A stretch of 64,000 nucleotides of DNA from Nitrosococcus wardiae (GTDB lineage Bacteria; Pseudomonadota; Gammaproteobacteria; Nitrosococcales; Nitrosococcaceae): the NCBI RefSeq assembly GCF_004421105.1, contig NZ_CP038033.1, positions 2,251,659 to 2,315,658 on the forward strand, given 5' to 3'. Each line of letters starts with the position of its first letter. Positions within the stretch are counted from its first letter, which is position 1. Under the pieces are notes generated by a model. That model was not told where the DNA came from, made no database searches, and worked only from the letters and a program-made list of their open reading frames with translations. Shown one piece after another: positions 9,217-25,554 of this stretch. Both the position numbers and the translations under genes were made by a program.

Positions 9217-9352
9217 ACTTTGGATATCGAATACAAGTTCCCCATTCAAGCAGGTGAGAGAGAAAACTAGGTTCTATCCCAGGGGTACTGGCGCGCACTC
9301 CCCGCGGCGGTCAATAGAAATTCCCGCCTGAGCCGCTTTGCAAGCGCGTCTT

Positions 9353-9994: not shown

Positions 9995-11326
9995 ATGGTA
10001 GGCGCGTTATCAAAGCCGGAAGACGCAATTCAGCAGCAAGCTTATCCGTTCCAGGGGAAGTGGGATGATTATGATCCGCTGATGGAGTTGATCGGCGATA
10101 AATCCTTTATTTTACTAGGTGAGGCCACCCATGGCACCCACGAGTTCTATGCCACCCGTGCTGAGATTACCCAGCGTTTGATACTGGAGCAGGATTTGAA
10201 TGCGGTGGCAGTGGAAGCGGACTGGCCAAGTGCCTATCGGTTGAATCGTTATGTGCGTGGTTTAGGCAAGGACAGTAGCGCGCAAGAAGCGATGAGCGAC
10301 TTTAGGCGCTTTCCGCTGTGGATGTGGCGCAATACGGTCATTCACAACTTTATCGAATGGCTGCGCGAATACAATCAACAGTGTGCACCGGCACAACAAG
10401 TGGGTTTTTACGGATTGGATTTGTATAGTTTGTATGAGTCCGTAGCGGTGGTACTCGACTATTTACAAAAGGTCGATCCAGAAGCGGCTGAAGAAGCACG
10501 CAAAGCCTATGAATGTTTAGATCATAGAGGGGATGAGCAGCGCTACGGATCCGGTGTGATGTTGGGGCTTCGGCGATCCTGCGAAGACGAAGTGGTGCAA
10601 CAGTTAATAGCCTTGCGTCATAATGCTTTGGATTATGTCCAACGAAATGGTATGGCGGCAGCCGATGAACAATTTCAGGCGGAGCAAAATGCACGCCTGA
10701 TTAAAAATGCCGAAGCTTACTATCGTGGTCTGTTCAGCCGGCGCGTCAATACCTGGAATATACGTGACCAGCATATGAGCAATACGCTAAATGAGTTGCA
10801 TCAACATCTCTCTGCCCAGGCGGGGCGTAATGCCCGGATTGCTGTGTGGGAACATAACTCGCATTTGGGCGATGCCCGCGCTACCGAAATGGGTCGCCAG
10901 GGAGAATTAAATGTGGGTCAATTAACCCGTGAGCGGCATGGGAGCAATTGCGTGCTGATTGGTTTTACCACCTATACTGGTACAGTCGCTGCCGCCTCCT
11001 CTTGGGATGGTCCGGTGGAGCGCAAGTTAGTGCGGCCGGCGTTGGCGGAAAGTTTTGAAGACCTGTTTCATCGCACCGGTCTCCGCCGTTTTCTGTTGAT
11101 TCCCTGCAAGGGGAGCGCTGAAGTTCTAAGAGAGTGGCACTTGGAGCGGGCTATCGGTGTACTGTATTTGCCGGAAACCGAACGGGCTAGTCACTATTTT
11201 TATGCACGTATGGCGGACCAATTTGATGCTGTGCTGCATTTTGATCAAACCCAGGCGCTCGAACCGTTAGATACAATAGCGGAATGGGAAAGGGGTGAGG
11301 AGGAAACTTATCCGTTTGGTGTGTAG
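9995..11326 (+). CDS. Erythromycin esterase family protein
   Basis: A 443-residue protein of the erythromycin-esterase/EreA-like superfamily. Motifs: GEATHGTHEFY (about residue 42), VEADWPSAYRLNRYV, FYGLDLYSL, and WEHNSHLGDARATEMG (about 285), which hold the conserved Glu and His residues of the active site. The frame extends upstream to 9887, but ATG 9995 has GAGGAGG at 9981-9987, so I use it. The Ere enzymes open macrolide lactones. Most chromosomal relatives have unknown substrates, so macrolide resistance should not be assumed. It follows a MITE-like palindrome, and no operon partner is visible. Confidence 0.85.
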   Translation: MVGALSKPEDAIQQQAYPFQGKWDDYDPLMELIGDKSFILLGEATHGTHEFYATRAEITQRLILEQDLNAVAVEADWPSAYRLNRYVRGLGKDSSAQEAMSDFRRFPLWMWRNTVIHNFIEWLREYNQQCAPAQQVGFYGLDLYSLYESVAVVLDYLQKVDPEAAEEARKAYECLDHRGDEQRYGSGVMLGLRRSCEDEVVQQLIALRHNALDYVQRNGMAAADEQFQAEQNARLIKNAEAYYRGLFSRRVNTWNIRDQHMSNTLNELHQHLSAQAGRNARIAVWEHNSHLGDARATEMGRQGELNVGQLTRERHGSNCVLIGFTTYTGTVAAASSWDGPVERKLVRPALAESFEDLFHRTGLRRFLLIPCKGSAEVLREWHLERAIGVLYLPETERASHYFYARMADQFDAVLHFDQTQALEPLDTIAEWERGEEETYPFGV

Positions 11327-13829: not shown

Positions 13830-14629
13830 TGCTTGCTCCTCGTGGTAGAGGCCATCCCTAGCCGTTATTTTTTCTCGCCTCCGCTTCTCCTGGCTTCCAG
13901 TAGCTAGTCTAGTTCCCGCTTGGCCTCTATTTCATCCGCATCAAACTGCGCATGCGCCGAGGAGGTGTCAACAGGACCCGCCGACTAAGACCTTTTGAAT
14001 CGCAGCCCATCACTCGGGATCCAGAGAATTTATAAAAAAATAGCCCGGAGAGGAATCCGGGCTAGTAGGAAGGCTAAATGCCACGAATTTTCCGCCTCGT
14101 GGCCAGACGGGATAGGGGGAGGCTCTTAGAGACAAGTTTATGTTTATGCTCGCGAGAGTGCTATAAAGGAATACCCTATTAGGAATAACCCTAGGTGAGC
14201 ATGCCCCCCCTGAAGTCGGAACATTTCGGATTCCTCATCTAGGCAAAATCAAAAAAATACGTTGCGTTCTAGCCAACTATTTTTGTTTTTTATCGGTTTA
14301 ACCCCCACGCTTTTTGGAAAAAAATTTTCTCCTTCGGCCTCATTCTAAGCCAAGAAGATAAAAATATAATTATTCTTACTTAATAACTTACATTGTTTGC
14401 AACGTTCTTCTTTATCGACCTGGCATGGTAAGTGCCCTATGGAGGGAAACATCCGATTAGTCCCAAGGGTGATAGGCATTTCCAAGCCCACCTTCTACAA
14501 ATACATTCGTGAGCAGCAGAAAAAACCAATAGAGTGTAAGCCGTGCTACCTAAAATCCTTAGTGTGTATTTTTACAGTAATTGGGGTGCTATCCTATCTG
14601 TAAAAAAGGCCAAATCGCTCTACAGCTAT
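13830..14629. other. Long region without a clear gene; possible structured RNA on minus strand
   Basis: A minus-strand terminator at 14034-14064 is preceded (in that direction) by a 7-bp hairpin, GCCACGA 14080-14086 with TCGTGGC 14097-14103, and no minus-strand gene lies to its right before the subtilase. A small RNA or leader transcribed leftward from about 14150-14250 would fit. Around 14439-14540 a plus-strand frame reads VIGISKPTFYKYIREQQKK, reminiscent of a recombinase helix-turn-helix, but too short to call. The rest shows nothing. Confidence 0.35.
14034..14064 (-). terminator. Intrinsic terminator, minus strand
   Basis: Stem TAGCCCGGA (14041-14049) with TCCGGGCTA (14056-14064) and a 6-base loop. 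On the minus strand it is followed by T7 (complement of A 14034-14040). Confidence 0.8.
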
Positions 14630-15121
14630 ATGGCATATATTCCAAGTAGAATCTTCCTTCTAATGGGTGGCTGTTGCTTTGCTTTTGGACTACCTGGTAT
14701 GGAGGAATTAAGTGAAAGGCGTCAAATCGGACCTGTGGAGATCACAGTTCCTTCAATGGAAATCGATATACCGGCACCTGAAATACGGGAAGGCCTTATG
14801 ACGACCGCATTGCCAGGTAAGGCTGAATCTTTGGTGGAGCTGGCTAAGCATGATCTCGCCGAAAAGCTCGACATCAATTCTGATGAGATCGAACGTGTTC
14901 TTTTCGAGGAGGTCACCTGGCGGGATGGCAGCCTAGGCTGTCCGCAATCCGGCCGAGCCTACCCCCAGGTTCTGGTCAACGGGACACGCATCATTCTGCG
15001 AGCTGTGGGCCGGGATTGGCACTATCACAGCGGCGCGGGCCGCGCTCCATTTTTGTGCATGATGCCCCAAGAACCGCTCTCCGCCAAGGATAATCCCAGC
15101 AGCGGCTCCGGGGACCGTTAA
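14630..15121 (+). CDS. Exported protein with a WxDGSLGCP domain of unknown function
   Basis: 163 residues from ATG 14630; GTG 14543 and ATG 14663 are alternatives and no start has a strong ribosome site. The N-terminus (MAYIPSRIFLLMGGCCFAFG) is a short hydrophobic signal, perhaps a lipoprotein (GGC or GCC). From about residue 70 a compact domain reads VELAKHDLAEKLDI, TWRDGSLGCPQSGRAYPQVL, GTRIILRAVGRDWHYHS and PFLC. I recall this domain in many small extracytoplasmic bacterial proteins, without a known activity. The gene converges on the subtilase and shares the terminator region with it. Secretion beside a secreted protease is suggestive only. Confidence 0.65.
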   Translation: MAYIPSRIFLLMGGCCFAFGLPGMEELSERRQIGPVEITVPSMEIDIPAPEIREGLMTTALPGKAESLVELAKHDLAEKLDINSDEIERVLFEEVTWRDGSLGCPQSGRAYPQVLVNGTRIILRAVGRDWHYHSGAGRAPFLCMMPQEPLSAKDNPSSGSGDR

Positions 15122-15155
15122 CCCCGAACCAATATTCGTTTTTGCAAATTTTTAA

Positions 15156-15183
15156 AAAGGGCACCCCTGGCAGAGTGCCCTTT
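15156..15183 (-). terminator. Terminator between convergent genes
   Basis: Stem AAAGGGCAC (15156-15164) with GTGCCCTTT (15175-15183). On the minus strand the stem is followed by TTAAAAATTT, which suits the end of the subtilase transcript. Confidence 0.75.
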
Positions 15184-15195
15184 GACGATACGATA

Positions 15196-18100
15196 TTAAT
15201 GCCAATCCGTGTCGATCCTGACGAGGGTGAAGTCGATAAGACCGTCATTGTAGCCGCTCGGCGAAGTGATATCATGATAGGTGACGCTGCCGAGGTACTT
15301 GGTGGCGGTTTCCAGACTGCTCCAATCTACCGTCACAGTGTCGGAGGCTCCCAGTATTGCGGAGGATGGCGCCGTCACCGTCATATTGCCGGCATCGGCT
15401 GCCCCCAGTGCCCAACTAAAGAGGGTGTAATTGGCATCCGGGCCGTCGGTCTGCCAACCATGGACTACCACCTGGTACATCCCTGGATCAGGGTTCTCAA
15501 GATTGACTTCTTCCGCTGAGGTGGGTGTTCCACTACTTCCAACGAAGTCGGCCGTATCAGGGTCAAACACGTACAGGTCTAGGTCGTCTTGCCCATCGGT
15601 GTCACCGTCGAAGAGGGAAAACCTGGCGTATTTCGTTCCCGCAGGAATATCAACCACATGAACCGTGATGCCGACCCCGGTAGACAGAGCCGTGTTGATG
15701 TCATTCGCGGGATCATCCACCACCGTATCGGCCTGGGTCTCTGCCGGGATCAGTCCGTGGGGGTTGGCTGCAAAGTCACCAGAATAGCCGAAGGTAATCT
15801 CATAACTCAAGGTGCCATCGGTCCCGGTTCCCGAAACTTCATCTGGAGCCGCCAGTACAACGGGTTTAATGGCGATCGGGCTGCGCACATTGTGTACGCT
15901 GTCACTCCATGCCAGGGAACCGAAGGCCCATTCATCCAGGGTTGCACTCGAAGTCGTGGTGAAGGTGACCTCATAGGTACCGGATTCCCCTTCGGCGAGA
16001 GTCAGCGATGAGGGGTTCACTGCGACACTGATTCCCGGCGGTGCATCGACCGACACGTTATAGGTGGCCGCCCCCGGTGTTACGCTAGTGACCGTGCGCG
16101 GGACCGTCTGGACACCGGCCAACTCGGCGATGCCAATGGAGGCCAGGTTTAGATCGCTGGCATCGAACGAGAAACCAAAGCGTTCGAGAACATCACAGGT
16201 GTTTTGGCTTACGCCGGTGGTGGCTCCGCACAAGAAAGCCTGATAATCCCGGAAGCCGGCCTGGTAGAGCCATCCCGGATCGACGGCGGAATTCGGAGCG
16301 ATATGCCCGCTACCCATGTCAAAGGGATCGGCCGGTGTCGCGCCGTCCTCCTTCTTGACATCTTGCGAACCAGTGGTCATGAGGGCCGATTTGATCATGG
16401 CTGGTGTCCAGTCCGGGTGGGCCTGTTTCAGCAATGCACCTACCCCGGCCACATGCGGGCTCGACATGGAAGTGCCGCTGATGGCCAGGAAGAGCTCACC
16501 TGGTGCCCCAAAGTAGGGATTGGGCGTGTTCCCGGCTAGGATGTTGACGCCTGGGGCAGTTACATCGGGCTTGATGATGTCAGGCGCAATCCCATTCGGG
16601 CCGCGCGAGGAGAAGGCTGCCATCCAGGGGGCAGGAATCGTGACCTTCTCGCCACCAGTAATCTGAGCGGTTGCAGTGGGACCAGCACTGTCGATGTAAG
16701 CTTTGGCTGCTAGGCCGTCGGTGTTATTGATATGCACGGTGGGCACAAAGTGGTTATCTGTGATCTGCGCCTCGGTGTCGCTGGTGTTGTAGAGCACCAT
16801 GCCGGCGGCGCCGGCCTCAAAGACGGCCCGGCTTTTGTCCACCCGGGCGATTTCTCCCCGCAGGCAGAGGACGATCTTATCTGCCACCAGGGCTGGATCG
16901 AGCGCATCCGGATGGCAAAGCTCCGATCCGGCGTCTTCGGCATCCACTAAAGGCAGCACATCCGTGCCCCCCGTGAGGGAAGCGCCGAAATACTCTGCAC
17001 CATTCTCTAGCTTCACAGAACCCTCAAAAGTGCGATCCTGGGTGCTGGCTCCCACTGCGGTGATCCACGGGACGGAGGCCGGTCCACTAACGGTATCGGG
17101 ACCCGGACCCGAGTTCCCGGCGGAGGTTGCCACGAACACTCCCGCCTCCGCTGCGAACAGATAGGCTATATCATCGGGGCCGAGCAGGCTAGCTCCGCCG
17201 CCGATCGAGTAGTTGATGACATCCACACCGTCGGCAACGGCATCATCGATGGCCTTTATAATATCCGATACAAAGCAGCCGACATTGTTCCAGCACACTT
17301 TGTAGGCCGCGATGCGGGCGCGGGGAGCAATGCCGCTTACCATGCCTCGGTCGATACCGAAGATCTCAGCCGGGACATTTGCATTGCCGCCCGCCGTGCT
17401 AGCCGTATGGGTGCCATGTCCGTCCCTGTCGCGAGGTGATAGGTAATCCTCCGTGATGACCGTGGCGGCTTCAGCGCCCACTCGATAAAAGCGTGCCCCA
17501 ATAAGCTTATTGTTACAGTCCTCCTGGGAGAACTGCTCGCCGGAAACGCACTCGCCGAACCAGTCCGAGGGCGGCGGGCCGTAGGCGGAATTGCGCTTGC
17601 CGCTTCTCCCGGATGCGTCACTGAGATCCAACTGGTCCGAGAAGCTCGGATGCTCAGGCCAAATACCGGTGTCGATCACGCCGATGATGATGTCCTCCCC
17701 GGCATTACCCCGGCCACCAAGCTGGTCCCAAAGTCCTCTTTCAGTCAAGCCCAGGAACTCCGGCGTGTTATCCGTCTCAATCTGTAGGATTTCCTCAGGA
17801 AAGATCATCTGAACGTTGGGGTGTTTGGCGGTAGCAATAGCCTGTTGCCTCGTAAGAGCGGCTGAATAGCCATTGAAGCTGTAGACGTAATTGTAGAACT
17901 GTTCAACCGCGCCGGTAGCGTTCAGTACCGCTGCCTGTTGATCCCTAAGGTGATTAGTGTACCCGCGTATCGAAGCACTGTGAGGATTTATTTTCTTCCC
18001 CTTAGTCAGCTTTGTAGCTGGAAGATCTTGAATGCCACCGTCGTAGGTAACAACCGGCTCATCGACTAACTGGACGATGTAGGTATTTGTCCCGGTTTTG

Positions 18101-18234
18101 ATCCCGAACGTCTCCGCCAGCGCTTCATCTGGCACACTGACGTCCGGGCGGTTATCCTGGGCAAATCCTGGCATAGTAATGCTCACCACTAAGATGAGCA
18201 CTGCTCCAAGCAAGCTAAAAATTTTTCTCGCCAT
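15196..18234 (-). CDS. Secreted subtilisin-family serine protease (S8) with PA and C-terminal domains, 1012 aa
   Basis: The start is ATG 18234, because AAAGGGAGG (18241-18249) precedes it; a longer frame begins at 18273. Layout: signal peptide (ARKIFSLLGAVLILVV to GFAQ), an I9-type propeptide (about 50-145), then the catalytic domain with Asp in VIDTGIWPEHPSF (about residue 188), His in DGHGTHTAS (about 273) and Ser in GTSMSSPHVAG (about 587). A PA-type insert lies between His and Ser (LCLRGEIARVDKS, GAAGMVLYN). After it come a fibronectin-like region and a PPC-like domain (DDLDLYVFDPD near 910), as in cucumisin-like plant and bacterial subtilases. It probably degrades extracellular proteins. 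All triad residues are intact. It lies 254 bases from the decayed PatG-like protease remnant, on the opposite strand. Confidence 0.93.
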   Translation of the reverse strand: MARKIFSLLGAVLILVVSITMPGFAQDNRPDVSVPDEALAETFGIKTGTNTYIVQLVDEPVVTYDGGIQDLPATKLTKGKKINPHSASIRGYTNHLRDQQAAVLNATGAVEQFYNYVYSFNGYSAALTRQQAIATAKHPNVQMIFPEEILQIETDNTPEFLGLTERGLWDQLGGRGNAGEDIIIGVIDTGIWPEHPSFSDQLDLSDASGRSGKRNSAYGPPPSDWFGECVSGEQFSQEDCNNKLIGARFYRVGAEAATVITEDYLSPRDRDGHGTHTASTAGGNANVPAEIFGIDRGMVSGIAPRARIAAYKVCWNNVGCFVSDIIKAIDDAVADGVDVINYSIGGGASLLGPDDIAYLFAAEAGVFVATSAGNSGPGPDTVSGPASVPWITAVGASTQDRTFEGSVKLENGAEYFGASLTGGTDVLPLVDAEDAGSELCHPDALDPALVADKIVLCLRGEIARVDKSRAVFEAGAAGMVLYNTSDTEAQITDNHFVPTVHINNTDGLAAKAYIDSAGPTATAQITGGEKVTIPAPWMAAFSSRGPNGIAPDIIKPDVTAPGVNILAGNTPNPYFGAPGELFLAISGTSMSSPHVAGVGALLKQAHPDWTPAMIKSALMTTGSQDVKKEDGATPADPFDMGSGHIAPNSAVDPGWLYQAGFRDYQAFLCGATTGVSQNTCDVLERFGFSFDASDLNLASIGIAELAGVQTVPRTVTSVTPGAATYNVSVDAPPGISVAVNPSSLTLAEGESGTYEVTFTTTSSATLDEWAFGSLAWSDSVHNVRSPIAIKPVVLAAPDEVSGTGTDGTLSYEITFGYSGDFAANPHGLIPAETQADTVVDDPANDINTALSTGVGITVHVVDIPAGTKYARFSLFDGDTDGQDDLDLYVFDPDTADFVGSSGTPTSAEEVNLENPDPGMYQVVVHGWQTDGPDANYTLFSWALGAADAGNMTVTAPSSAILGASDTVTVDWSSLETATKYLGSVTYHDITSPSGYNDGLIDFTLVRIDTDWH

Positions 18235-18487
18235 AATAAACCTCCCTTTATTCAAAGCTTGAATGATCTTCATCTTTCATATTTTTTGACAAATTCCGCC
18301 TTGCATTCCTGGTCTGTTATGTCTGTCATGATTGCCCTCTTGCCCCTTCTTAACCGGCCTCCGAGGCAGCTATCTACGTCTAGAAAAGGGGAAGCGACGC
18401 CCATTCCCACAGCAGCAATATGGAGCATCTGCCTAAAATGCTCTTGATAGATTTATAGTTCACCAATCTGGGAATTACCGTTGAATT

Positions 18488-19165
18488 TTGTATGCGGAGG
18501 AGTCTTCTGCCGACCCCCAGCAGCGACTCATGATAAGGTTAAGGGTTGGTAACGATTTGTGTGCTACCCATATCGCCAGCATTATTTTTGGTCAGCACGA
18601 GGGACTTGTAAAAGGGATCGCGCCCATTGCCGCGGTCTCATTGTGCCGGTCTTTAAGGAGGGCAATGATCACGCTATCGCCCTTTGTTCCCAACTCGACC
18701 TAGCCCGTGGCCTCCTGCAAGCCGCACAAAAAGGGGCTCATATCATCAATATCAGCGGTGGCGAACTTTCCCCTTCCGGTACGGCCCATCCTCTCCTGGC
18801 CGATGCGGTCCGGCATTGTGCCGCCCAGGGTATCCTGATGGTTGCTGCCGTCGGCAACGAGGGCTGCGATTGCCTTCATATTCCCGGCGCATTGCCCACG
18901 GTATTGGCGGTAGTGGCGATGAATGCCCAAGGCAAGCCGCTTCCCTTAAGTAACTGGGGTCAAAATTATCAATCCAGATGACCCTAAGCAGCTGCTGGCT
19001 TATCTTGAAGAGAGCCCTTGGAATGCGGCGGCCATTCTCTGGACCCTCAATCTAGATGCGACCCCCATTTATGAGATACAGGGACAAGGAGCTTTTGCCA
19101 GTGATGGTGGGGCCGGTGCGCTCCTGGTTTGTGCGGTAACCTCCTTAAGCGAAGAGGCACTAAAG
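18488..19165 (+). pseudogene. Decayed PatG-like subtilase (cyanobactin-type maturation protease) remnant
   Basis: Three pieces are readable. Frame A (from GTG/ATG near 18488) includes ATHIASIIFGQHEGLVKGIAP, the region after the catalytic His, though GHGTH is degraded to LCATH. Near 18622 one base is missing, and the frame continues as HCRGLIVPVFKEGN, GAHIINISGGELSPSG, GILMVAAVGNEG, LPLSNWG to TGA 18979. From 18968 a third frame reads INPDDPKQLLAYLEE, AAAILWTLNLDATPIYEIQ, the conserved C-terminal PatG domain. The catalytic Ser segment and much of the C-terminal region are deleted. It is therefore inactive. The PatG assignment rests on recall of the NP(x)DPxxLLAYL and WTLNLDATPIY motifs. Confidence 0.7.
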
Positions 19166-19540
19166 ATGAGACTTCCAACCCAGCCAGCGGGAATTCTCCC
19201 CGCTGCATTTGCTCGGGGTTGTGCCCGGGCAGCCAGGCTTGTACCTCCAGGCGTAGACCCGGAATGTTATAGGGATTGCTACCGACCGTGCCTTGAGGAC
19301 TGTTTACAAGATCCAGCACTGGGCAGGCATAGCGTCTGTGTTCCGCTTTGCAGACAAGAATGCACTGCAGTATGCACTCCACAGCCATTACCCCCGGAAG
19401 GGTGCATTGACATTCATTATGTTCCCCAGTGCTATCGCCCCAATCCTTTTACTGAGTGTTGTACCACGCGCCATGAGGTCAGGTGCACAGAGTGTCATTC
19501 AATCTTTACGCCTGCCTCTGGGGCGAGCCACTTTTTTTAG
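19166..19540 (+). CDS. Cys-rich small peptide with MRLPTQ start, possible RiPP-like precursor
   Basis: 124 residues from ATG 19166, preceded by GAAGAGG. The N-terminus MRLPTQPAGILPAAF is followed from about residue 30 by a Cys-dense body: GVDPECYRDCYRPCLEDC, SVCVPLCRQECTAVC, GCIDIHYVPQC, ECCTTR, RCTEC; 15 Cys in all. No membrane signal. It lies immediately after, and in frame with, the PatG-like remnant, and shares its first residues and ribosome-site region with the next small gene. I infer a leader plus a core or scaffold. A structural Cys-rich or metal-binding protein is the alternative. Whether it is still expressed is unclear. Confidence 0.55.
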   Translation: MRLPTQPAGILPAAFARGCARAARLVPPGVDPECYRDCYRPCLEDCLQDPALGRHSVCVPLCRQECTAVCTPQPLPPEGCIDIHYVPQCYRPNPFTECCTTRHEVRCTECHSIFTPASGASHFF

Positions 19541-19626
19541 AATGGACGGCATGCTTATCAAGCGAGGGGGGTATGTCAACGCATGATTCTCGTATATGCA
19601 ACGCCCTATTGAAGAGGTATGGGGAG

Positions 19627-19932
19627 ATGAGACTTCCCAAACAATCGGCAGGGACCCAATTTACTAAATTTTTAACATTTAGTCAGGATGGTATTATCCC
19701 TACTCAAGTGGCAGCTCTACAATGGCATTCCGCTCCACAAACTGTTAGAAGCTTCAGACAAACTCTGCCCACGTGTAGAGCGGAGGGTGGTCGATCAGTT
19801 ATTGTGATGGAACCGTGCGGCAGCGCTCCCAAGGGGATTCCACCGCCAATGTGCCCAACCGCTAGAGTAGAGTGTGATTATGTATGCAGATGGCCGAGTG
19901 GTGCGGAAGGGCGAACAATAATTTTGTTATGA
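19627..19932 (+). CDS. Second small peptide with MRLPKQ start, possible paralogous precursor
   Basis: 101 residues from ATG 19627. The DNA around the start repeats that of the gene at 19166: GAAGAGG, 8-9 bases, ATGAGACTTCC. The protein begins MRLPKQSAGTQFTKFLTF, then DGIIPTQ (compare GVDPEC in the first peptide), and has 5 Cys near its end (PTCRAEGG, MEPCG, MCPTARVECDYVC). The last residues look less protein-like, so the 3' end may be frame-altered. Earlier in-frame starts exist (19483), but the conserved start region favours 19627. Confidence 0.45.
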   Translation: MRLPKQSAGTQFTKFLTFSQDGIIPTQVAALQWHSAPQTVRSFRQTLPTCRAEGGRSVIVMEPCGSAPKGIPPPMCPTARVECDYVCRWPSGAEGRTIILL

Positions 19933-20236
19933 ATATCCTTTCCGTAATAGATTGCATTTTTTGGGTAAATTGGTATGACTTATCTCCCATCAGTGAAAGA
20001 CACCATCAGTATAGCATTGTGGCTATACTGATGGTGATGACCTGGAGAATGGGCACCCTCAACGCGAGGAGGGTAGACGAAATTTGGCTACGCTGTCCCT
20101 AGAGAGGCCTGCCCGGTTCAGCCAAATAGCCAATCTGATTAAGGCTGATCGGCCTGGAACAGGTCCATGAGCCAGAGTTAATGCATGAAAACTCTGGCCC
20201 TAAGCGGCAGCCGTGAATTGGCGGGAAAGCGCCATT
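19933..20236. other. Intergenic region with two hairpins
   Basis: It contains the perfect 15-bp stem at 20001-20036 and a second inverted repeat, GCCAGAGTT 20171-20179 with AACTCTGGC 20190-20198. No gene is recognised. Confidence 0.5.
20001..20036. repeat. Perfect 15-bp hairpin
   Basis: CACCATCAGTATAGC (20001-20015) pairs with GCTATACTGATGGTG (20022-20036) across ATTGTG. There is no T-run, so it is not a simple intrinsic terminator. It lies 68 bases after the second small peptide gene. Confidence 0.85.
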
Positions 20237-20755
20237 TTAGAAACACAATTCTCCGGAAAACTCCATATCAATTGCTAGGCTACAGAATAAGGTTCCTTCG
20301 ATGGTGATGGAACCGCCCGTTACTCCATCGAATCGACCCGTTCCGGTGCCAAGCACGGGCTGCGATACTTCCAAAAAAGAGAAGCTCTGGAGGCCATGCC
20401 CACAGTCTTCTGGTTCGCTCGTTGGATAGCCACTTGTGTCCCACACCAATTGGGAATGAACTGGAAATTCATAGCCCACATCATCGTCGCACACTATGGT
20501 GTGATCAAAGTTCAGAGGCCCGATATCATCGGGGTCATTAGGATTCTGATTCTTTCCGTCTCCTCTCAACCCGCACTTGAATTTTTCTTTACCGAAAATG
20601 ATATGTGCAATTCCAAGCGTGCTTCCGGGACCAAGTGCATTATTAAAAAATTTTCCTTTTATTGGAATGCAGTCTCCAGCAGCTGTCGCCGGGCCCGCTA
20701 GCCCAATACTAAGTAAAACAGCACCAAAAGATGCAAGCCCATACTTTCTGTTCAT
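20237..20755 (-). CDS. Secreted hypothetical protein, 172 aa
   Basis: The gene reads from ATG 20755. A clear Sec signal peptide (NRKYGLASFGAVLLSIGLAG, cleavage after ATAA) is followed by a mature domain with Cys at GDCIPIK, FKCGLRGDG, IVCDDDVGYEF, EDCGHGLQ, LFCSLAID and GELCF. These six Cys could form three disulfides. A GTGTGRFDGVTGGSITIEG stretch resembles the barrel repeats of allene-oxide-cyclase-like or similar secreted beta-barrels. I do not recognise the family. It probably has its own promoter; its neighbours are fragments. Confidence 0.7.
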   Translation of the reverse strand: MNRKYGLASFGAVLLSIGLAGPATAAGDCIPIKGKFFNNALGPGSTLGIAHIIFGKEKFKCGLRGDGKNQNPNDPDDIGPLNFDHTIVCDDDVGYEFPVHSQLVWDTSGYPTSEPEDCGHGLQSFSFLEVSQPVLGTGTGRFDGVTGGSITIEGTLFCSLAIDMEFSGELCF

Positions 20756-20875
20756 TGAATCCTCTCACCTAGTCCAATGAAAAGGAATAGTCCAGCAAAT
20801 GCTGTACCTGTACGATTACGATTCGCAACGCTAGGATATAGGTGAATATTTCCTAAGTAAACTTAAAGTGAGCTG

Positions 20876-21067
20876 CTAATTGACAGTCCTCCAGAGCACT
20901 GCCAGTTTGAATAGATTATTGAGCAGATATACGAAAGCCGTGAGCGCCACCGCCACAGTAACCGGAAAGAAAATCGCGACTACCGGCATAAGCAGGGTTC
21001 CCAGTCCAAAGCCAGAGAACAACGTTAGTAGTGAGGCGAGAAAGGCGGCGATAATAATAGCCGTCAT
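20876..21067 (-). pseudogene. N-terminal stub of a TauE/SafE (TSUP) sulfite exporter-like permease
   Basis: 63 codons from ATG 21067: AAFLASLLTLFSGFGLGTLL then MPVVAIFFPVTVAVALTAFV and LNNLFKLAVLWR, the first two helices of TSUP permeases, which are about 250 residues. The frame stops at 20876 and nothing recognisable follows, so the remaining six or so helices are lost. It lies downstream of selO on the same strand. Confidence 0.75.
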
Positions 21068-21113
21068 AATAACGTCATGGCACTTAAGTACCTATCCGCT
21101 GGTATATAGGTTA

Positions 21114-22595
21114 TCAAGTACCACAAAAAGTTTGGGACACACGTTCTTTCGGCGCAGGAGGGTTTTTGAATTCAGTGTATTTCTCTTTATCTTTATAGGG
21201 CTCAGACAGCACATCCAGCAGTTCGTGTAACTTTGAGAAGTCAGTGTTCTGTGCTGCAGCGTTGAGCGCTGCTTCTACACGATGATTACGGGGGATGACC
21301 ACCGGGTTAGCCGCATCCATGAGGCACAGGGAGGATGGGAACGGTTTGGTGTTACGCTCCAACCGCTGTTGCCATCTATTATGCCAATGTTTGAATTCTT
21401 GATCCTGGTAGTGTGGCTCTTCGGGAAAATGCTTATCCATCAGGTCACGAAATGTATTGGTATAATCCGCATGGCTGCGCTGCATCCATTGCAGAAGCCT
21501 GTTGATGAATTCCATATCTTCTTTTTCTTCACCGAACAGCCCCAGCTTGCGACGCATCATTGCCAGCCATTCCTGCTGAAATAATACCTTAAATGATTGG
21601 ATGGTTTCCTCTGCCATTGCGGCAGCTTTCTCCATATTTTCATGCAGTAGCGGAAGGATAGCTTCGGCAAACCGTGCTAAGTTCCACTGCGCGATACGGG
21701 GCTGATTGGCATAGGCATAACGCCCCATATGGTCGATGGAGCTGAACACGGTGCTGGGATCATAGCTATCCATGAATGCACAGGGGCCATAGTCAATGGT
21801 CTGACAGGAAATGGCCATATTGTCCGTGTTCATCACGCCGTGAATAAACCCTACTCGCAGCCATTCGGTGATAAGTTTTATCTGGCAAGCCATGACGGCC
21901 TTGAGCAGATCAAGATAGGGAGTATCAGAGTCTATTATTTCCGGATAATGGCGCTGGATAGTATACTCAGCAAGTTGCTTCAGGCCTGCTGTATCTTCTT
22001 GTGCGGCCAGATATTCAAATGTGCCCACACGCAAATGACTGGATGCGACGCGTGTCAGAATCGCTCCTTGCAGTACCGTTTCCCGGTAAACAGGTTCGCC
22101 GGTGGTGGCTACTGCCAGACTACGGGTGGTAGGGGTGCCTAGCGCATGCATGGCTTCGCTGATGAGATACTCTCGCAGCATCGGACCTAGTGCGGCACGC
22201 CCATCACCGCGCCGGGCATAGGGTGTTTGGCCCGAGCCTTTGAACTGAATATCCACCCGTTTGCCGTCTGGAGTGAGATGCTCGCCGATTAAATGGGCCC
22301 GCCCATCGCCCAAGTAGGTAAAATGGCCAAACTGATGCCCCGCATAGGCCTGTGCCAAGGGTTCTGCACCTTCTGGAAGCTGATTGCCTGAAAAAAGCTG
22401 CGCTAATTCATCCTCAGAGGTGGCTTTGAAATTTAATCCTAGTTCTTCTGCCAGGGCATCATTGACAATGACAAGGCGTGGTTCACGCACAGGAACAGGA
22501 TGTAGCTTCGTGTAAAAGTGGCCAGGCAGCTGCGCATAGGTGTTATCAAAATGCCAACCGATATCTTGATGCTTCATGACTGTGGGTGATGGCAT
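21114..22595 (-). CDS. selO: Protein adenylyltransferase SelO (YdiU family)
   Basis: SelO is a pseudokinase-fold enzyme that moves AMP from ATP onto Ser, Thr or Tyr of target proteins, acting in redox stress. Motifs seen: QAYAGHQFGHFTYLGDGRA, KGSGQTPYARRGDGRAALGP, GVMNTDNMAISCQTIDYGP (catalytic-loop Asn/Asp and metal-binding Asp), and a C-terminal FCGT with the Cys that replaces selenocysteine of some homologues. The start at ATG 22595 has GGAG just upstream; the frame extends 6 codons further without a good site. The length of 493 residues is normal for the family. Confidence 0.93.
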   Translation of the reverse strand: MPSPTVMKHQDIGWHFDNTYAQLPGHFYTKLHPVPVREPRLVIVNDALAEELGLNFKATSEDELAQLFSGNQLPEGAEPLAQAYAGHQFGHFTYLGDGRAHLIGEHLTPDGKRVDIQFKGSGQTPYARRGDGRAALGPMLREYLISEAMHALGTPTTRSLAVATTGEPVYRETVLQGAILTRVASSHLRVGTFEYLAAQEDTAGLKQLAEYTIQRHYPEIIDSDTPYLDLLKAVMACQIKLITEWLRVGFIHGVMNTDNMAISCQTIDYGPCAFMDSYDPSTVFSSIDHMGRYAYANQPRIAQWNLARFAEAILPLLHENMEKAAAMAEETIQSFKVLFQQEWLAMMRRKLGLFGEEKEDMEFINRLLQWMQRSHADYTNTFRDLMDKHFPEEPHYQDQEFKHWHNRWQQRLERNTKPFPSSLCLMDAANPVVIPRNHRVEAALNAAAQNTDFSKLHELLDVLSEPYKDKEKYTEFKNPPAPKERVSQTFCGT

Positions 22596-22867
22596 GGGTC
22601 TCCAAATCTTCAATCGTTACTGATTCTCCTCGATTAGTTCATTCTAACCCATCAAAAACGTCAGTTCGACATAAGCCAAGGGTTATTCCCGTTGTGCCTG
22701 GAGGGGGTATGGAATCAAGACTAACGCATGAAGAATAAAAGAGATGGCGTTGTCTACCAGCGCTTGCACACGGGCCCAGGAGAATGGGGTAAGAAAGGTA
22801 TGATGGCATCAGTCGAACGTTCCAGCACGAATTGACAGGCCACTGAGGGGTTTCCAATGTCCGACCC

Positions 22868-23280
22868 TCACTGCCACCCCATCATGGCGATGATCCCATT
22901 GAGCACTAGCGACAGCACGGTGGCGGCCAGGCCTAGGGGCACCAGGGCGATGAAGGCCATCAGCAGCTTGCGCCCGTCCCCCCAAGCCGTGCGCCGCGCG
23001 ATGAGTATCTCCAGGCCAGGGGGGCCAATAGCATCAACACGAACCAGCCCACGAAGTTGAGCAGGGGGATTCCGTAATAGATTTCCCCCGGCACGAACCA
23101 CACCCAATAGCCGACGGCCACGGCGATGGGATCGATAAACAAATCCAGCCCAACTGCGATCACGCCGGTAACCCAGGGCGCCTGCCACTTCAATCGAGGC
23201 GCACTCAGCAGGTCTTCATTGGCGCGGGCTAGTATCCCTTCGGTGAGGAGCAGGCAGATCCCGCACACCGCCATCCAGCG
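22868..23280 (-). pseudogene. Frameshifted fragment of a CruF/DUF422 carotenoid-biosynthesis-type membrane protein
   Basis: Reading from 23280, one frame gives AVCGICLLLTEGILARANED, then LDLFIDPIAVAVGYWVWFV, GEIYYGIPLLNFVGWFVLML and APLAW. A one-base change near 23010 moves the sequence to another frame: LEILIARRTAWGDGRKLL, LSLVLNGIIAMMGWQ to the stop at 22868. The DPxAVxxGxW and YYGIPLxNFxGW motifs are those of DUF422 proteins (carotenoid hydratase CruF and relatives). The 5' part is missing, abutting an amidohydrolase fragment on the other strand. Confidence 0.65.
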
Positions 23281-23281
23281 G

Positions 23282-23490
23282 GAAATGGCCCGGGCGGCGG
23301 TGGAGGCGGGTGCGGATATTCTGGTCCATAGCATTGAGGATAAGGCGGTTGAGCCCGCGCTGATTCAACGTCTGAAGGCGTGCCACATCCCCTACATCAC
23401 CACCTTCATGGTCCACGAAGGCTACCGGGAAGTTTTGGGACAGGAGGTTGAACTTTCCCCCATTGAGCAACGTAGGGGCGATCCCCAAAA
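23282..23490 (+). pseudogene. Fragment of an imidazolonepropionase-like amidohydrolase gene
   Basis: About 65 codons in one frame: EMARAAVEAGADILVHSIED, KAVEPALIQRLKACHIPYIT, FMVHEGYREVLGQEVELSP. The AGADILVHSxxD and HxIPYITT patterns match the metal-dependent amidohydrolase family, including the metal-binding His of the LVHS strand. Both ends are missing. It starts where the DUF422 fragment starts on the opposite strand and runs into the 3' end of the SDR gene, so this is a rearrangement junction. Confidence 0.6.
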
Positions 23491-23497
23491 GCCTCGC

Positions 23498-24280
23498 TTA
23501 GGCGCCTTGGCCCTGGAACAGCATCAACGCGCCATCCACGACTAAGGTCGTGCCGTGGATATAACGGGCATCCTCGGAGGCGAGAAATACCGCCGCTTTG
23601 GCAATTTCCTCGGGTTCGGCGGCACGTTTCATCGGAATCGACTGAACCTGCTGCTCCCGCACCTTGGGATCGTCCATGGCCTGCTGGTTAAAGGGAGTTA
23701 ACACCATGCCCGGCGCAATGTTATTGACATTGATGTTTTTCTCGGCCAGTTCCAAGGCCAGCGTGGTCGTGAGATTCTTGAGCCCTCCCTTAACCACATC
23801 ATAACCTGCTGCGCCGGCCCGTGGGATTTCCTGGTGAACACTGGTGATGTTGATGATCACGCCGTGCTTGTCCGTGCCTTCCAATCCGCGGATGAACTGC
23901 TGGCAACAGAAGAAGGGCCCGTAGAGATTGGTTTTGAGTTCATTGTCCCAATCCTCAATGGGCATGTCCTTCACGTACTGACCAGTGGAATCGATGCCGG
24001 CGTTGTTCACCAGGATAGTGGGCGTGTCCAGTTGCTCTCGCGTGATTTGAAAAAGCTGGGCGACCTGGTCCGGGTCCCGCTGGTCGAATTGAACCACCAC
24101 CGCCCGGCGTCCCGCCTGCTCGACGGCTTGCCGGGTGTGCTCGGCACCTTGCTGGTCATGGAGGTAGGTCACCATGACATCTGCGCCTTCTTGGGCAAAG
24201 GCCATCGCGGTGGCTTGACCGATGCCGGAGTCGGAGCCGGTGACCACCGCAGTCTGATTTCTAAGTCGCTGATTTCTCAT
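23498..24280 (-). CDS. Short-chain dehydrogenase/reductase (glucose 1-dehydrogenase-like)
   Basis: A 260-residue classical SDR that oxidises or reduces an alcohol or carbonyl group with NAD(P). Rossmann motif TGSDSGIGQA (about residue 15), NNAG (about 92), catalytic Ser in NITSVHQE (about 145) and the YxxxK pair in YDVVKGG (about 158-162). The tail IHGTTLVVDGALM is typical of family members annotated as glucose 1-dehydrogenase or 3-oxoacyl reductase. The substrate cannot be set from sequence. The start ATG 24280 has AGGAGAAC upstream. The gene is complete, although its 3' end lies against amidohydrolase debris. Confidence 0.9.
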   Translation of the reverse strand: MRNQRLRNQTAVVTGSDSGIGQATAMAFAQEGADVMVTYLHDQQGAEHTRQAVEQAGRRAVVVQFDQRDPDQVAQLFQITREQLDTPTILVNNAGIDSTGQYVKDMPIEDWDNELKTNLYGPFFCCQQFIRGLEGTDKHGVIINITSVHQEIPRAGAAGYDVVKGGLKNLTTTLALELAEKNINVNNIAPGMVLTPFNQQAMDDPKVREQQVQSIPMKRAAEPEEIAKAAVFLASEDARYIHGTTLVVDGALMLFQGQGA

Positions 24281-24856
24281 GACCTGTTCTCCTCACGAGG
24301 GCCTCAAGGGGAGTAATGACATATGCAGTGCAGCAAGAAACGCATGGTTCAGGCTGTCTCCAATTTGGAGATCAATTAGTAGAGAGTTAAGCACTTTCCC
24401 CTGTGAAGTCAATTTCCACCTCATCATGGGGTGAACATGTGCCTTTTATAGTGAGAACAGGTATATGAGAATAGGTGGTTTAGTGGACAATGACTTGTAT
24501 ATCGAATGACGTAAATATTACAAATGCATTTGCAGCTATTGCAACAAGTACATACTAGCGACTGCCATAGATGCTCCTAATAAACCCATTAGACAGGCGA
24601 TGCGACTGTCTATGCCAAGGGAGCAGGCTTTGAACAGACTCACTTGGCATATGCCTTGCTATTTTTGCTAGGTAAGGACCCATAAAGGCAATACCTCGGT
24701 AGAGCCAAAGTGGGTGCTAGCCCATAGAGGGCATATCAGCCTATGCGCATCCTATCCGCGCTCCTCTGCAAAGGGAAAAGTAATTGGCGGCCACGCGCTA
24801 TCTTCAGTCTAAGCGGGCCATGCACTTAACCCCATTGACTCAATTAAGGAGAAGAG
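24281..24856. other. Long intergenic region, no gene recognised
   Basis: About 575 bases. A 30-codon plus-strand frame near 24592-24681 (ending LLFLLGKDP) is protein-like but unidentified and has no start. AAGGAG at 24846-24851 is the likely former ribosome site of the SYLF gene. Confidence 0.35.
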
Positions 24857-25554
24857 AGTAAGAATACTAAAATTACTCTATTGACAGCCGCTGGTTTTTT
24901 CGCCGTCATATCAATAATTCTTCCACTCAGTACTGCGCAAGCTGCCGAATCCGTTGAGGAGAGGACCGAACAACTGGCAGAAGCCCAAGAGACGGTTAAT
25001 GAGGCGGCCAAAGTTGTGCAGCAAATGAAATCCGATCCCGACTTAGTGCAGCAGATGAGAACGGCGAAAGGCATTTTTATCGTACCCAATTATGGAAGGG
25101 CCGCACTAGGCGTGGGGGGGGGGCAGGTGGTGAAGGGGTATTGCTCACACACCGTAATGGCCAATGGAGCAGCCCCATGTTCTATAATCTTGCCGCTATC
25201 AGCGCTGGAGCTGAGGCCGGTATTGAAGCGGGGCAGATTGCCATGCTCCTGATGACTGAGAAAGCCGTAGAGAGTTTTATGACCAATAATAACTTCTCTC
25301 TGAATGCTGACGCCGGGTTCACTATCATCGACTCTTCGGCACGTGCCCAAGGTTCCTTAGGTAAAGGCGATATCATTATCTGGTCTGATACCGAAGGCCT
25401 CTTTGCCGATCTCGCTATCAACGTGGAGGATATTGTCTGGGATGATGAAGAAAACGCCGCCTATTACGGCACCACAACAGTATCCCCGGCAGCCGTTGCT
25501 AAAGGCGAGATAAAAGCCAGCCAGGATGAAACGATTCATAATGTCCTGCCCTAA
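24857..25554 (+). pseudogene. SYLF/Ysc84-family protein gene, frameshifted and without a start codon
   Basis: Reading from 24857, the triplet where ATG would be expected is AGT, five bases after AAGGAG. The frame then gives KNTKITLLTAAGFFAVISI and a signal cleavage site AQA-AES, followed by RTAKGIFIVPNYGRAALGVG. A G10 run (25114-25123) breaks the frame; with eight Gs it would read GVGGAGGEGVLLTHRNGQW and continue in the frame that ends at 25554 (FYNLAAISAGAEAGIEAGQI, MLLMTEKAVESF, DAGFTIIDSSARAQG). SYLF proteins bind lipids and here would be periplasmic. A TTG at 24881 could start a shortened product. Two lesions argue for a pseudogene, but a G-run can also be a switch or an assembly error. 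Confidence 0.8.

Follow-up and report, generated by a model that had tools for sequence, protein, structure and literature searches.

The closest described relatives of the system considered here are the cyanobactin clusters, in which the protease PatA cuts precursor peptides after a G(L/V)E(A/P)S motif (PMC10885120, in its accessible part). Proteases of the PatA/PatG family are treated as parts of such clusters in the accessible portions of the literature, and one source, to the extent that its text is open, places them there and reports their absence from NHLP and Nif11 clusters (PMC4603692). Here we describe a locus from a 64-kb stretch of the Nitrosococcus wardiae genome (NZ_CP038033.1, positions 2,251,659 to 2,315,658; hereafter the window), in which the remains of a PatA/PatG-family protease gene stand directly ahead of two small open reading frames (ORFs), p1 and p2. 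It is probable that this locus represents a decayed stand-alone leader peptidase of PatA type together with its precursors, that is, a small peptide-maturation system. It would then be a decayed case of cyanobactin-type leader processing in a stand-alone variant that is apparently undescribed, to which the label RiPP (ribosomally synthesised and post-translationally modified peptide) might be extended.

Two further described elements invite comparison. Group VI cyanobacterial bacteriocin clusters have, by their description, an S8 peptidase amid small precursor genes (PMC3140520, in its accessible part), and gene B of cyanobactin clusters encodes a short conserved protein, non-essential and without an identified function according to the accessible text of PMC4663559. 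A stand-alone protease accompanied by leader-bearing ORFs was not found described in the open-licence literature, the accessible parts of which are too limited to establish its absence in print (PMC10885120, PMC4603692, PMC4663559, PMC13174530, PMC12710340, PMC10783134, PMC4558948, PMC3140520, PMC10676384).

The protease remnant

The window belongs to a single-contig genome (G000) of 4,022,640 bases (4.02 Mb), from an organism that we take to be an ammonia oxidiser. At 18566-19139 it carries a protease pseudogene of the PatA/PatG family, broken into four pieces in three frames by a one-base frameshift and two deletions. The pieces were mapped by running six whole or partial relatives against the window with tblastn (positions are those of the window; L-numbers denote loci and G-numbers genomes):

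18566..18625, plus strand: protease piece 1 (THIASIIFGQHEGLVKGIAP), located with the L031 protein (80% identity, E 1.8e-7); Asp region absent
18625..18978, plus strand: protease piece 2, in a shifted frame, holding the subtilase core and its GNEGCDC region; TIGR03895 159.6 bits, 64.6% identity to Competibacteraceae L030; stops short of the Ser segment
18971..19105, plus strand: protease piece 3 (QLLAYLEESPWNAAAILWTLNLDATPIY...), TIGR03895 positions 367-413 at 44 bits, 78% identity to L030; follows a deletion of about 230 model positions
19089..19139, plus strand: protease piece 4, C-terminal end (ELLPVMVGPVRSWFVR) and TAA, in the third frame; 69% identity over 16 residues (L042 E 1.2e-4, L031 E 0.001)

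The frame at 18559-18981 matches the NCBIfam model of the PatA/PatG family, TIGR03895, at 159.6 bits (E 1.3e-46, model positions 18-137). In a search of the whole genome the same piece scored 156.8 bits and a second, at positions 367-413 and in another frame, 44 bits; beyond these two pieces no match above 48 bits was found anywhere in the 4.02 Mb. Neither score reaches the family cut-off of 421 bits, the window gene being a truncated derivative, and its best family match is TIGR03895 and its best solved structures are of PatA type. Compared by sequence, the remnant core aligns with the PatA-type structure 3zxy at 125.6 bits and with 4h6w ('N-terminal cyanobactin protease') at 122.4, whereas the PatG macrocyclase 4h6x reaches 43. 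This supports the view that the protease of the locus was PatA-like, and so would have been leader-cutting, rather than PatG-like.

Pieces 1 and 2 share the single base 18625, consistent with the loss of one base. Deletion has taken away the Ser segment together with most of the C-terminal domains, and catalytic Asp, His and Ser are all absent; the His is counted as lost because the HGTH of the relatives reads CATH here, just upstream of piece 1. The C-terminus VGPVRSWFVR is kept with its stop at 19107-19139 (TAA at 19137-19139).

A first-pass annotation, made from the letters alone, had described this region as a decayed PatG-like protease. The remnant itself was confirmed (159.6 bits), whereas its subtype had to be revised to PatA-like (125.6 versus 43 bits), and the pieces align far better with PatA/PatG proteases than with other subtilases, a comparison that had been proposed as a check. 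The motif WTLNLDATPIY, then regarded as specific to PatG, loses that status: WTLNLDAT is present exactly in six of the 17 stand-alone-type proteases introduced below, with a variant form in a seventh, and neither protease of the true cyanobactin cluster L046 showed the pattern. That core motifs lie in other frames agrees with the tblastn map, and the base loss placed near 18622 corresponds to the frame change at about 18625. The deletion of the Ser segment was likewise seen correctly; the loss of Asp and His and the survival of 19107-19139 had gone unnoticed.

The small ORFs p1 and p2

Directly after the remnant come two small genes with similar starts, as had also been noted at first pass. 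The features of this stretch are:

19151..19157, plus strand: ribosome-binding-like GAAGAGG, 8 nucleotides (nt) ahead of the p1 start; the same heptamer precedes p2
19166..19540, plus strand: p1, precursor-like ORF of 124 amino acids (aa), MRLPTQPAGILPA..., 15 Cys; leader matrix 9.3 bits, rank 5 of 495
19190..19204, plus strand: p1 putative cleavage motif GILPA, read against the leader alignment; the spacer after MRLPTQ is unusually short
19265..19375, plus strand: p1 core, twin CX3CX3CX3C, a predicted helical hairpin (shuffling and AlphaFold2)
19611..19617, plus strand: ribosome-binding-like GAAGAGG, 9 nt ahead of the p2 start
19627..19932, plus strand: p2, precursor-like ORF of 101 aa, MRLPKQSAGTQFTKFLTFSQDGIIPTQ..., 5 Cys; leader matrix 19.4 bits, the top rank among 495
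19690..19704, plus strand: p2 putative cleavage motif GIIPT, read against the leader alignment

The start of p1 lies 26 nt past the protease stop codon, and p1 and p2 share 28 nt around their start codons that are 75% identical, the sole direct-repeat family (at least 14 nt) reported in 18200-20300. A start pattern of the MxLPxQ type occurs 15 times in the 4.02-Mb genome and opens an ORF of at least 100 aa in three of these: p1, p2 and C1:1765398, the last presumably a hibernation-factor-like protein. When a 13-column leader matrix, trained on 15 loci and with no window sequence included, was run over the 495 ORFs of the window, p2 came first at 19.4 bits, the next reached 12.4 and p1 was fifth at 9.3; the window thus has a small ORF with the leader motif downstream of its protease. 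The pattern G[VIL].P[SAT] falls within the first 45 residues of four of the 154 window ORFs of at least 60 aa, p1 and p2 included. Set against the boundary motif of the related loci, G[VI]x[PA][SA], p1 has GILPA and p2 GIIPT, the last residue of which is off the motif.

The core of p1 contains two CX3CX3CX3C runs that are 11 residues apart, and two such runs arose in 6 of 100,000 shuffles of p1. A single-sequence AlphaFold2 model predicts helices at 32-47 and 55-70, with 10-residue block means of 84-90 in the predicted local distance difference test score, mostly low values elsewhere and an overall mean of 61.7. The peptide at locus L031 (Nitrospinaceae) has the same double Cys ladder and a predicted two-helix end. 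The p1 core resembles alpha-hairpinins and twin CX3C proteins, whose two helices are joined by CX3C motifs.

It is quite unlikely that p1 and p2 are chance ORFs beside a subtilase pseudogene, or that p1 is merely a fused tail of the protease. Such a reading could draw on the 9.3 bits of p1, on its being in frame with protease piece 3 and on the outcome of the searches, which gave no family, structural or plasmid relative where these were sought: p1 had no match at E <= 10 in the PDB by sequence, its model none at E <= 0.001 by Foldseek, and tblastn of p1 and p2 against plasmids gave none. A search of the genus with the p1 protein extended upstream returned, besides itself, just weak matches with stops, and promoter and terminator scans stayed at chance level. 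Fusion was rejected, however, because the protease stop stands in a different frame 26 nt ahead of p1, which makes p1 a separate gene. Chance would also have to account for the 28 nt common to both starts, for the first place of p2 among 495 ORFs under a matrix built from outside the window, and for a Cys ladder that is rare in shuffled p1 and recurs beside the L031 protease.

Two minor features accompany these ORFs. In frame ahead of p1, 19139-19165 reads TSLSEEALK, which has LSEE in common with the LAELSEE of cyanobactin leaders (PMC4558948, in its accessible part); the likeness is taken as coincidence because the ATG of p1 is the first ATG, GTG or TTG of its frame after a stop and the bases in question include the ribosome-binding-like site. 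A perfect 15-nt inverted repeat at 20001-20036, with 6 nt between its arms and no T run, lies 69 nt past the p2 stop.

Distribution and integrity of related proteases

When genome contigs were scanned with the remnant, six loci came up. Five are close relatives; the sixth, L035 (Bdellovibrionales, a general subtilase, E 2e-8), was dropped before any counts were made. Family searches found the protease in two of 369 genomes of the class at E <= 1e-40 (G089 and G000), in one of 398 of the phylum at 1e-60 (G1036), in one of 297 from the phylum of a Desulfobulbaceae metagenome-assembled genome (MAG) and one of 40 from the order of a Competibacteraceae MAG (in each case the MAG itself), and in five of 249 from the order of G1036, that genome included. 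Nothing exceeded the cut-off in a search of relatives covering 59 genomes, the window's own among them. Plasmid records yielded 12 matches, from which eight loci were examined, H6 (a near copy of H5), H7 (partial) and H11 and H12 (36% and 31% identity) being left out, and the L036 protease found no relative among viral contigs, where it matched eight stretches. The outcome of the genome and plasmid searches points to a protease of rare and scattered occurrence.

Against TIGR03895, full-length relatives reach 440.6-687.2 bits, with L030 (505.8) and L075 (427.4) reaching their values just by the addition of neighbouring matches. By Pfam, all eight relatives tested consist of a subtilase domain followed by PatG_D and PatG_C. 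In the 17 aligned proteases of stand-alone type Asp and His are present throughout and Ser in 16, the exception being the L047 gene, from which that stretch is missing. In a tree calculated without L075, the two proteases of the cyanobactin cluster group with those of Streptomyces (0.99), apart from the others. For the counts that follow there are 18 loci, which exclude the cyanobactin cluster L046; L030 and L042 are two contigs of one genome and count as one locus, and the protease end at L075 is approximate.

Leader peptides at the related loci

Small ORFs with starts such as MRLPSQ, MKLPKQ, MKLPSQ, MNLPIQ and MRIPNQ accompany PatA/PatG-family proteases on their downstream side. The hosts are gamma- and other Pseudomonadota, one MAG each of Desulfobulbaceae and Hydrogenedentota, and plasmids of cyanobacteria (three) and Streptomyces (four); a Nitrospinaceae MAG has a weaker leader ORF. 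The Desulfobulbaceae locus L033 has five (four MKLPKQ and one MKLPKV), L036, from the class of the window, has two beginning MNLPIQ, and the Hydrogenedentota locus L032 has MKLPSQFSGVRR. The cyanobacterial plasmid leaders are MKLPVQAAPVQR (L044, Gloeocapsa), MRIPNQSIGQIR (L045, Acaryochloris) and MNLPIQSKPIFR (L047, Nostoc); L076/L049 has MRLPSQSPPVHR, and L073/L069 have MKLPSQAPAVIR and MNLPYQAKPIGR. On the four Streptomyces plasmids the ORFs stand in arrays; their leaders follow patterns such as LQMPQQxPPVDR ... GVEA, and the cores are short and for the most part free of Cys.

What these peptides share is a leader of the form [LIM]PxQxxPVxR followed by G[VI]x[PA][SA] (the consensus of 18 aligned non-Streptomyces leaders being MKLPxQxxxVxR ... 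GxxPS), the second motif taking forms such as GVEPS, GVEA, GITPS, GIKPS and GVQPS ahead of variable cores. TIGR03678, the patellamide family, weakly matches one of six peptides scanned, and does so over residues 3-15, which are the leader motif (E 0.09).

The association was quantified with the leader matrix. When each locus in turn was withheld, a small ORF behind the protease came out as the best of the whole locus in 13 of 15 cases, and at L031 and L074 it was second. In a locus test, in which the related group was left out of the training and ORFs of 35-150 aa lying -40 to +1500 nt from the protease were scored, 15 of the 18 non-cyanobactin loci reached the threshold of 12 bits, as against none of 20 control subtilase loci (best control 6.8). 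Two of the passing loci, L042 and L075, are outside the training set, and the L042 leader peptide lies 72 nt past the protease stop. Counted by ORF, the controls give none of 469 at 15 bits and one at 12; in a wider, partly biased background seven of 1241 ORFs reach at least 15 bits, three of these, at 19 bits or more, being one ORF in overlapping loci that had been chosen by the leader search. Stray high scores occur in the positive loci as well, one of them at 17.5 bits on the opposite strand of L076.

The first-pass annotation had proposed to look in related genomes for small MRLPxQ-type ORFs beside PatG-like genes, and such ORFs are there. Its suggestion of a peptide-maturation system outside cyanobacteria gains support as to kind from the leader ORFs of the related loci, with a PatA-like protease taking the place of the PatG-like one. 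The pairing of the protease with small Cys peptides holds in part: Cys-richness is common but not general, as the Streptomyces cores show.

At L033 the peptide at 8925-9308 (MKLPKQQAGV...) has a core that matches the group XII phospholipase A2 (PLA2) model PF06951 at E 1.6e-13, so the leader can precede an enzyme. This peptide, together with Streptomyces cores that look amphipathic by eye, would also suit an arrangement in which the pair of protease and leader serves not to release a product but to degrade or guard the small proteins, for instance PLA2-like domains or membrane-active peptides, the leader acting as an inactivating tag. We consider that arrangement unlikely, as a conserved G[VI]x[PA][SA] boundary ahead of variable cores suits site-specific release better than degradation.

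The Streptomyces arrays are tandem (L067 6445-7735; L065 6553-7988; L066 5116-6085; L048 8439-9611) and many of their leaders end in GVEA. The L067 array holds two identical copies, and every array opens with a gene whose core contains Cys.

An orphan leader peptide in the genus, and points of doubt

A leader hidden Markov model (HMM) of 36 positions was searched in four genomes of the genus. Its best match is a G003 peptide beginning MRLPKQAEGVIRNSGIFPQ... (E 0.0023; 24.5 bits by the matrix), and the match begins at the first HMM position. This orphan peptide, MRLPKQAEGVIR..GIFPQ, is encoded at L086 7489-7761, 0.5-0.7 kb from a SelO gene that is 94% identical to the SelO gene of the window, which sits 1.2 kb from p2; no protease piece was found near it. 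The likeness between the two places is not simple synteny, since SelO faces the peptide by its 5' side in G003 and by its 3' side in the window.

Several results count against a leader peptidase with its precursors and have to be set beside the evidence above. The leader HMM gives p2 an E-value of 1.1, which is not above noise, and misses p1 altogether; it also reaches E <= 0.01 in 14 of 274 genomes of the class, so that the E-value of the G003 peptide proves nothing by itself and its start position and place are needed. By the leader matrix p1 is not significant on its own, five of the 495 window ORFs reaching its score. Three of the 18 loci miss the threshold, namely L031 (6.6 bits), L034 (no positive score) and L074 (best 7.9), and because the initial choice of training peptides was made by eye and by pattern near the protease, the leader counts amount to consistency and not to a blind trial. 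Nor are all 18 proteases whole: L034 falls below the cut-off at 288.2 bits, the Ser stretch is missing from L047, more than one frame is needed to read L075 and L030/L042 is split by contig ends, and several of the loci are MAG contigs. Finally, no transporter or modifying enzyme was identified at the loci, where a transporter was not searched for.

Proposed mechanism and comparison with cyanobactin clusters

A working locus of this kind would comprise one PatA-type protease (subtilase, PatG_D and PatG_C) and, behind it, one to several precursor genes. The protease would bind the leader through the docking motif [LIM]PxQxxPVxR, probably by means of its C-terminal domains, and would then cut at the G[VI]xPS-type motif, which is of the same kind as the PatA site G(L/V)E(A/P)S. 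This would free the variable C-terminal core, which may be a Cys-rich hairpin, a small PLA2-like domain or a short amphipathic peptide; the binding, the cleavage and its site, the fate and function of the cores and any modification of them are what we infer from the protease family, gene order and shared leader. In the window the protease has lost its triad, so that p1 and p2 would be orphan precursors, and since the genome search gave no whole protease of the family they are most likely unprocessed relics. The short spacer of p1 suggests that its leader may have decayed too.

The loci described here have much in common with cyanobactin PatA: the family TIGR03895, the order of subtilase, PatG_D and PatG_C, a leader stretch like LPxQxxPVxR and a site of the G(L/V)E(A/P)S type. 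They differ from cyanobactin clusters in that LAELSEE does not appear in the leaders seen, cores are single, long and variable, and several phyla are represented. From p1 and p2 the motif, in the form given in the accessible part of PMC4558948, is absent by reading. The difference from Group VI clusters lies in the precursors, which were sought there by a double-glycine motif (PMC3140520, in its accessible part), whereas p1 and p2 lack it at the boundary; p1 has no GG, and p2 has it just at residues 54-55, inside the core, C39 peptidases and transporters not having been searched for.

The protease family and the leader motifs are those of cyanobactins, and it might be supposed that the locus is a ruined true cyanobactin cluster with a heterocyclised and macrocyclised product. 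We regard this as very improbable. There is a single protease remnant, and it is nearer PatA; p1 and p2 have long single cores and no LAELSEE. When the heterocyclase-type protein, SagB dehydrogenase, PatB and PatC of L046 were used as tblastn queries, nothing was found at E <= 0.01 in the 64-kb window or in 20 other loci, of which nineteen are protease loci or pieces of these, although distant relatives could be missed because the queries come from one cluster, and more distant genes could escape notice where a locus is represented by a short contig alone (L032, 4.0 kb; L036, 4.7 kb; L042, 2.0 kb). In the stretches examined of seven annotated plasmid loci, no cyanobactin heterocyclase, SagB, PatB or PatC gene is listed.

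One further link to cyanobactins, which also speaks for such a ruined cluster, comes from L046 itself, where the PatB/AcyB/McaB-family protein (TIGR04220) at 10574-10789 begins MRLPKLAPPVKR and scores 23.0 bits by the leader matrix. This member has a leader-like start, but the family is a short conserved protein and not a variable precursor; a search of plasmids with PatB found its own record alone.

Returning to the stand-alone leader peptidase, a wider proposition may be advanced, which we hold tentatively and regard as possible rather than probable. It is that loci of protease plus precursors form a cross-phylum class older and simpler than cyanobactin clusters, in which LPxQxxPVxR would be the docking signal of the PatA/PatG C-terminal domains for the release of Cys-ladder hairpins, PLA2-like enzymes and amphipathic peptides. 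Cyanobactin clusters would have arisen from it by the addition of a heterocyclase and a macrocyclase, PatB would be a relic precursor, and the window would preserve a fossil. If stand-alone leader peptidases do exist in several phyla, small genes now called 'hypothetical' could then be predicted to encode precursors of secreted or antimicrobial peptides, and the two-motif leader would, if real, offer a direct way to find them. It would likewise give a testable role to PatG_D and PatG_C and to the N-terminal stretch of the cyanobactin leader, and could provide a natural means of freeing Cys-rich or enzymatic cores from a tag.

Neighbouring features

The pseudogene and the two small ORFs lie between a divergent subtilase gene at 15196-18273 (minus strand) and a minus-strand ORF at 20237-20755. 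The subtilase carries PA, fn3 and PPC domains; a link between it and the locus was considered and rejected, as it belongs to another subfamily and scores just 18.8 bits against TIGR03895. A defence-system reading was likewise discarded, PADLOC assigning no family to the three proteins submitted, and an Rfam scan of 14000-25000 gave no matches. Elsewhere in the genome, three subtilase genes at G000:C1:6390, 3993275 and 4011339 have equal scores and equal 706-aa frames and are perhaps recent copies. A 63-aa minus-strand ORF at 20876-21067 matches the start of TauE alone (PF01925, positions 1-58 of 237, below the curated cut-off) and is perhaps a truncated gene.

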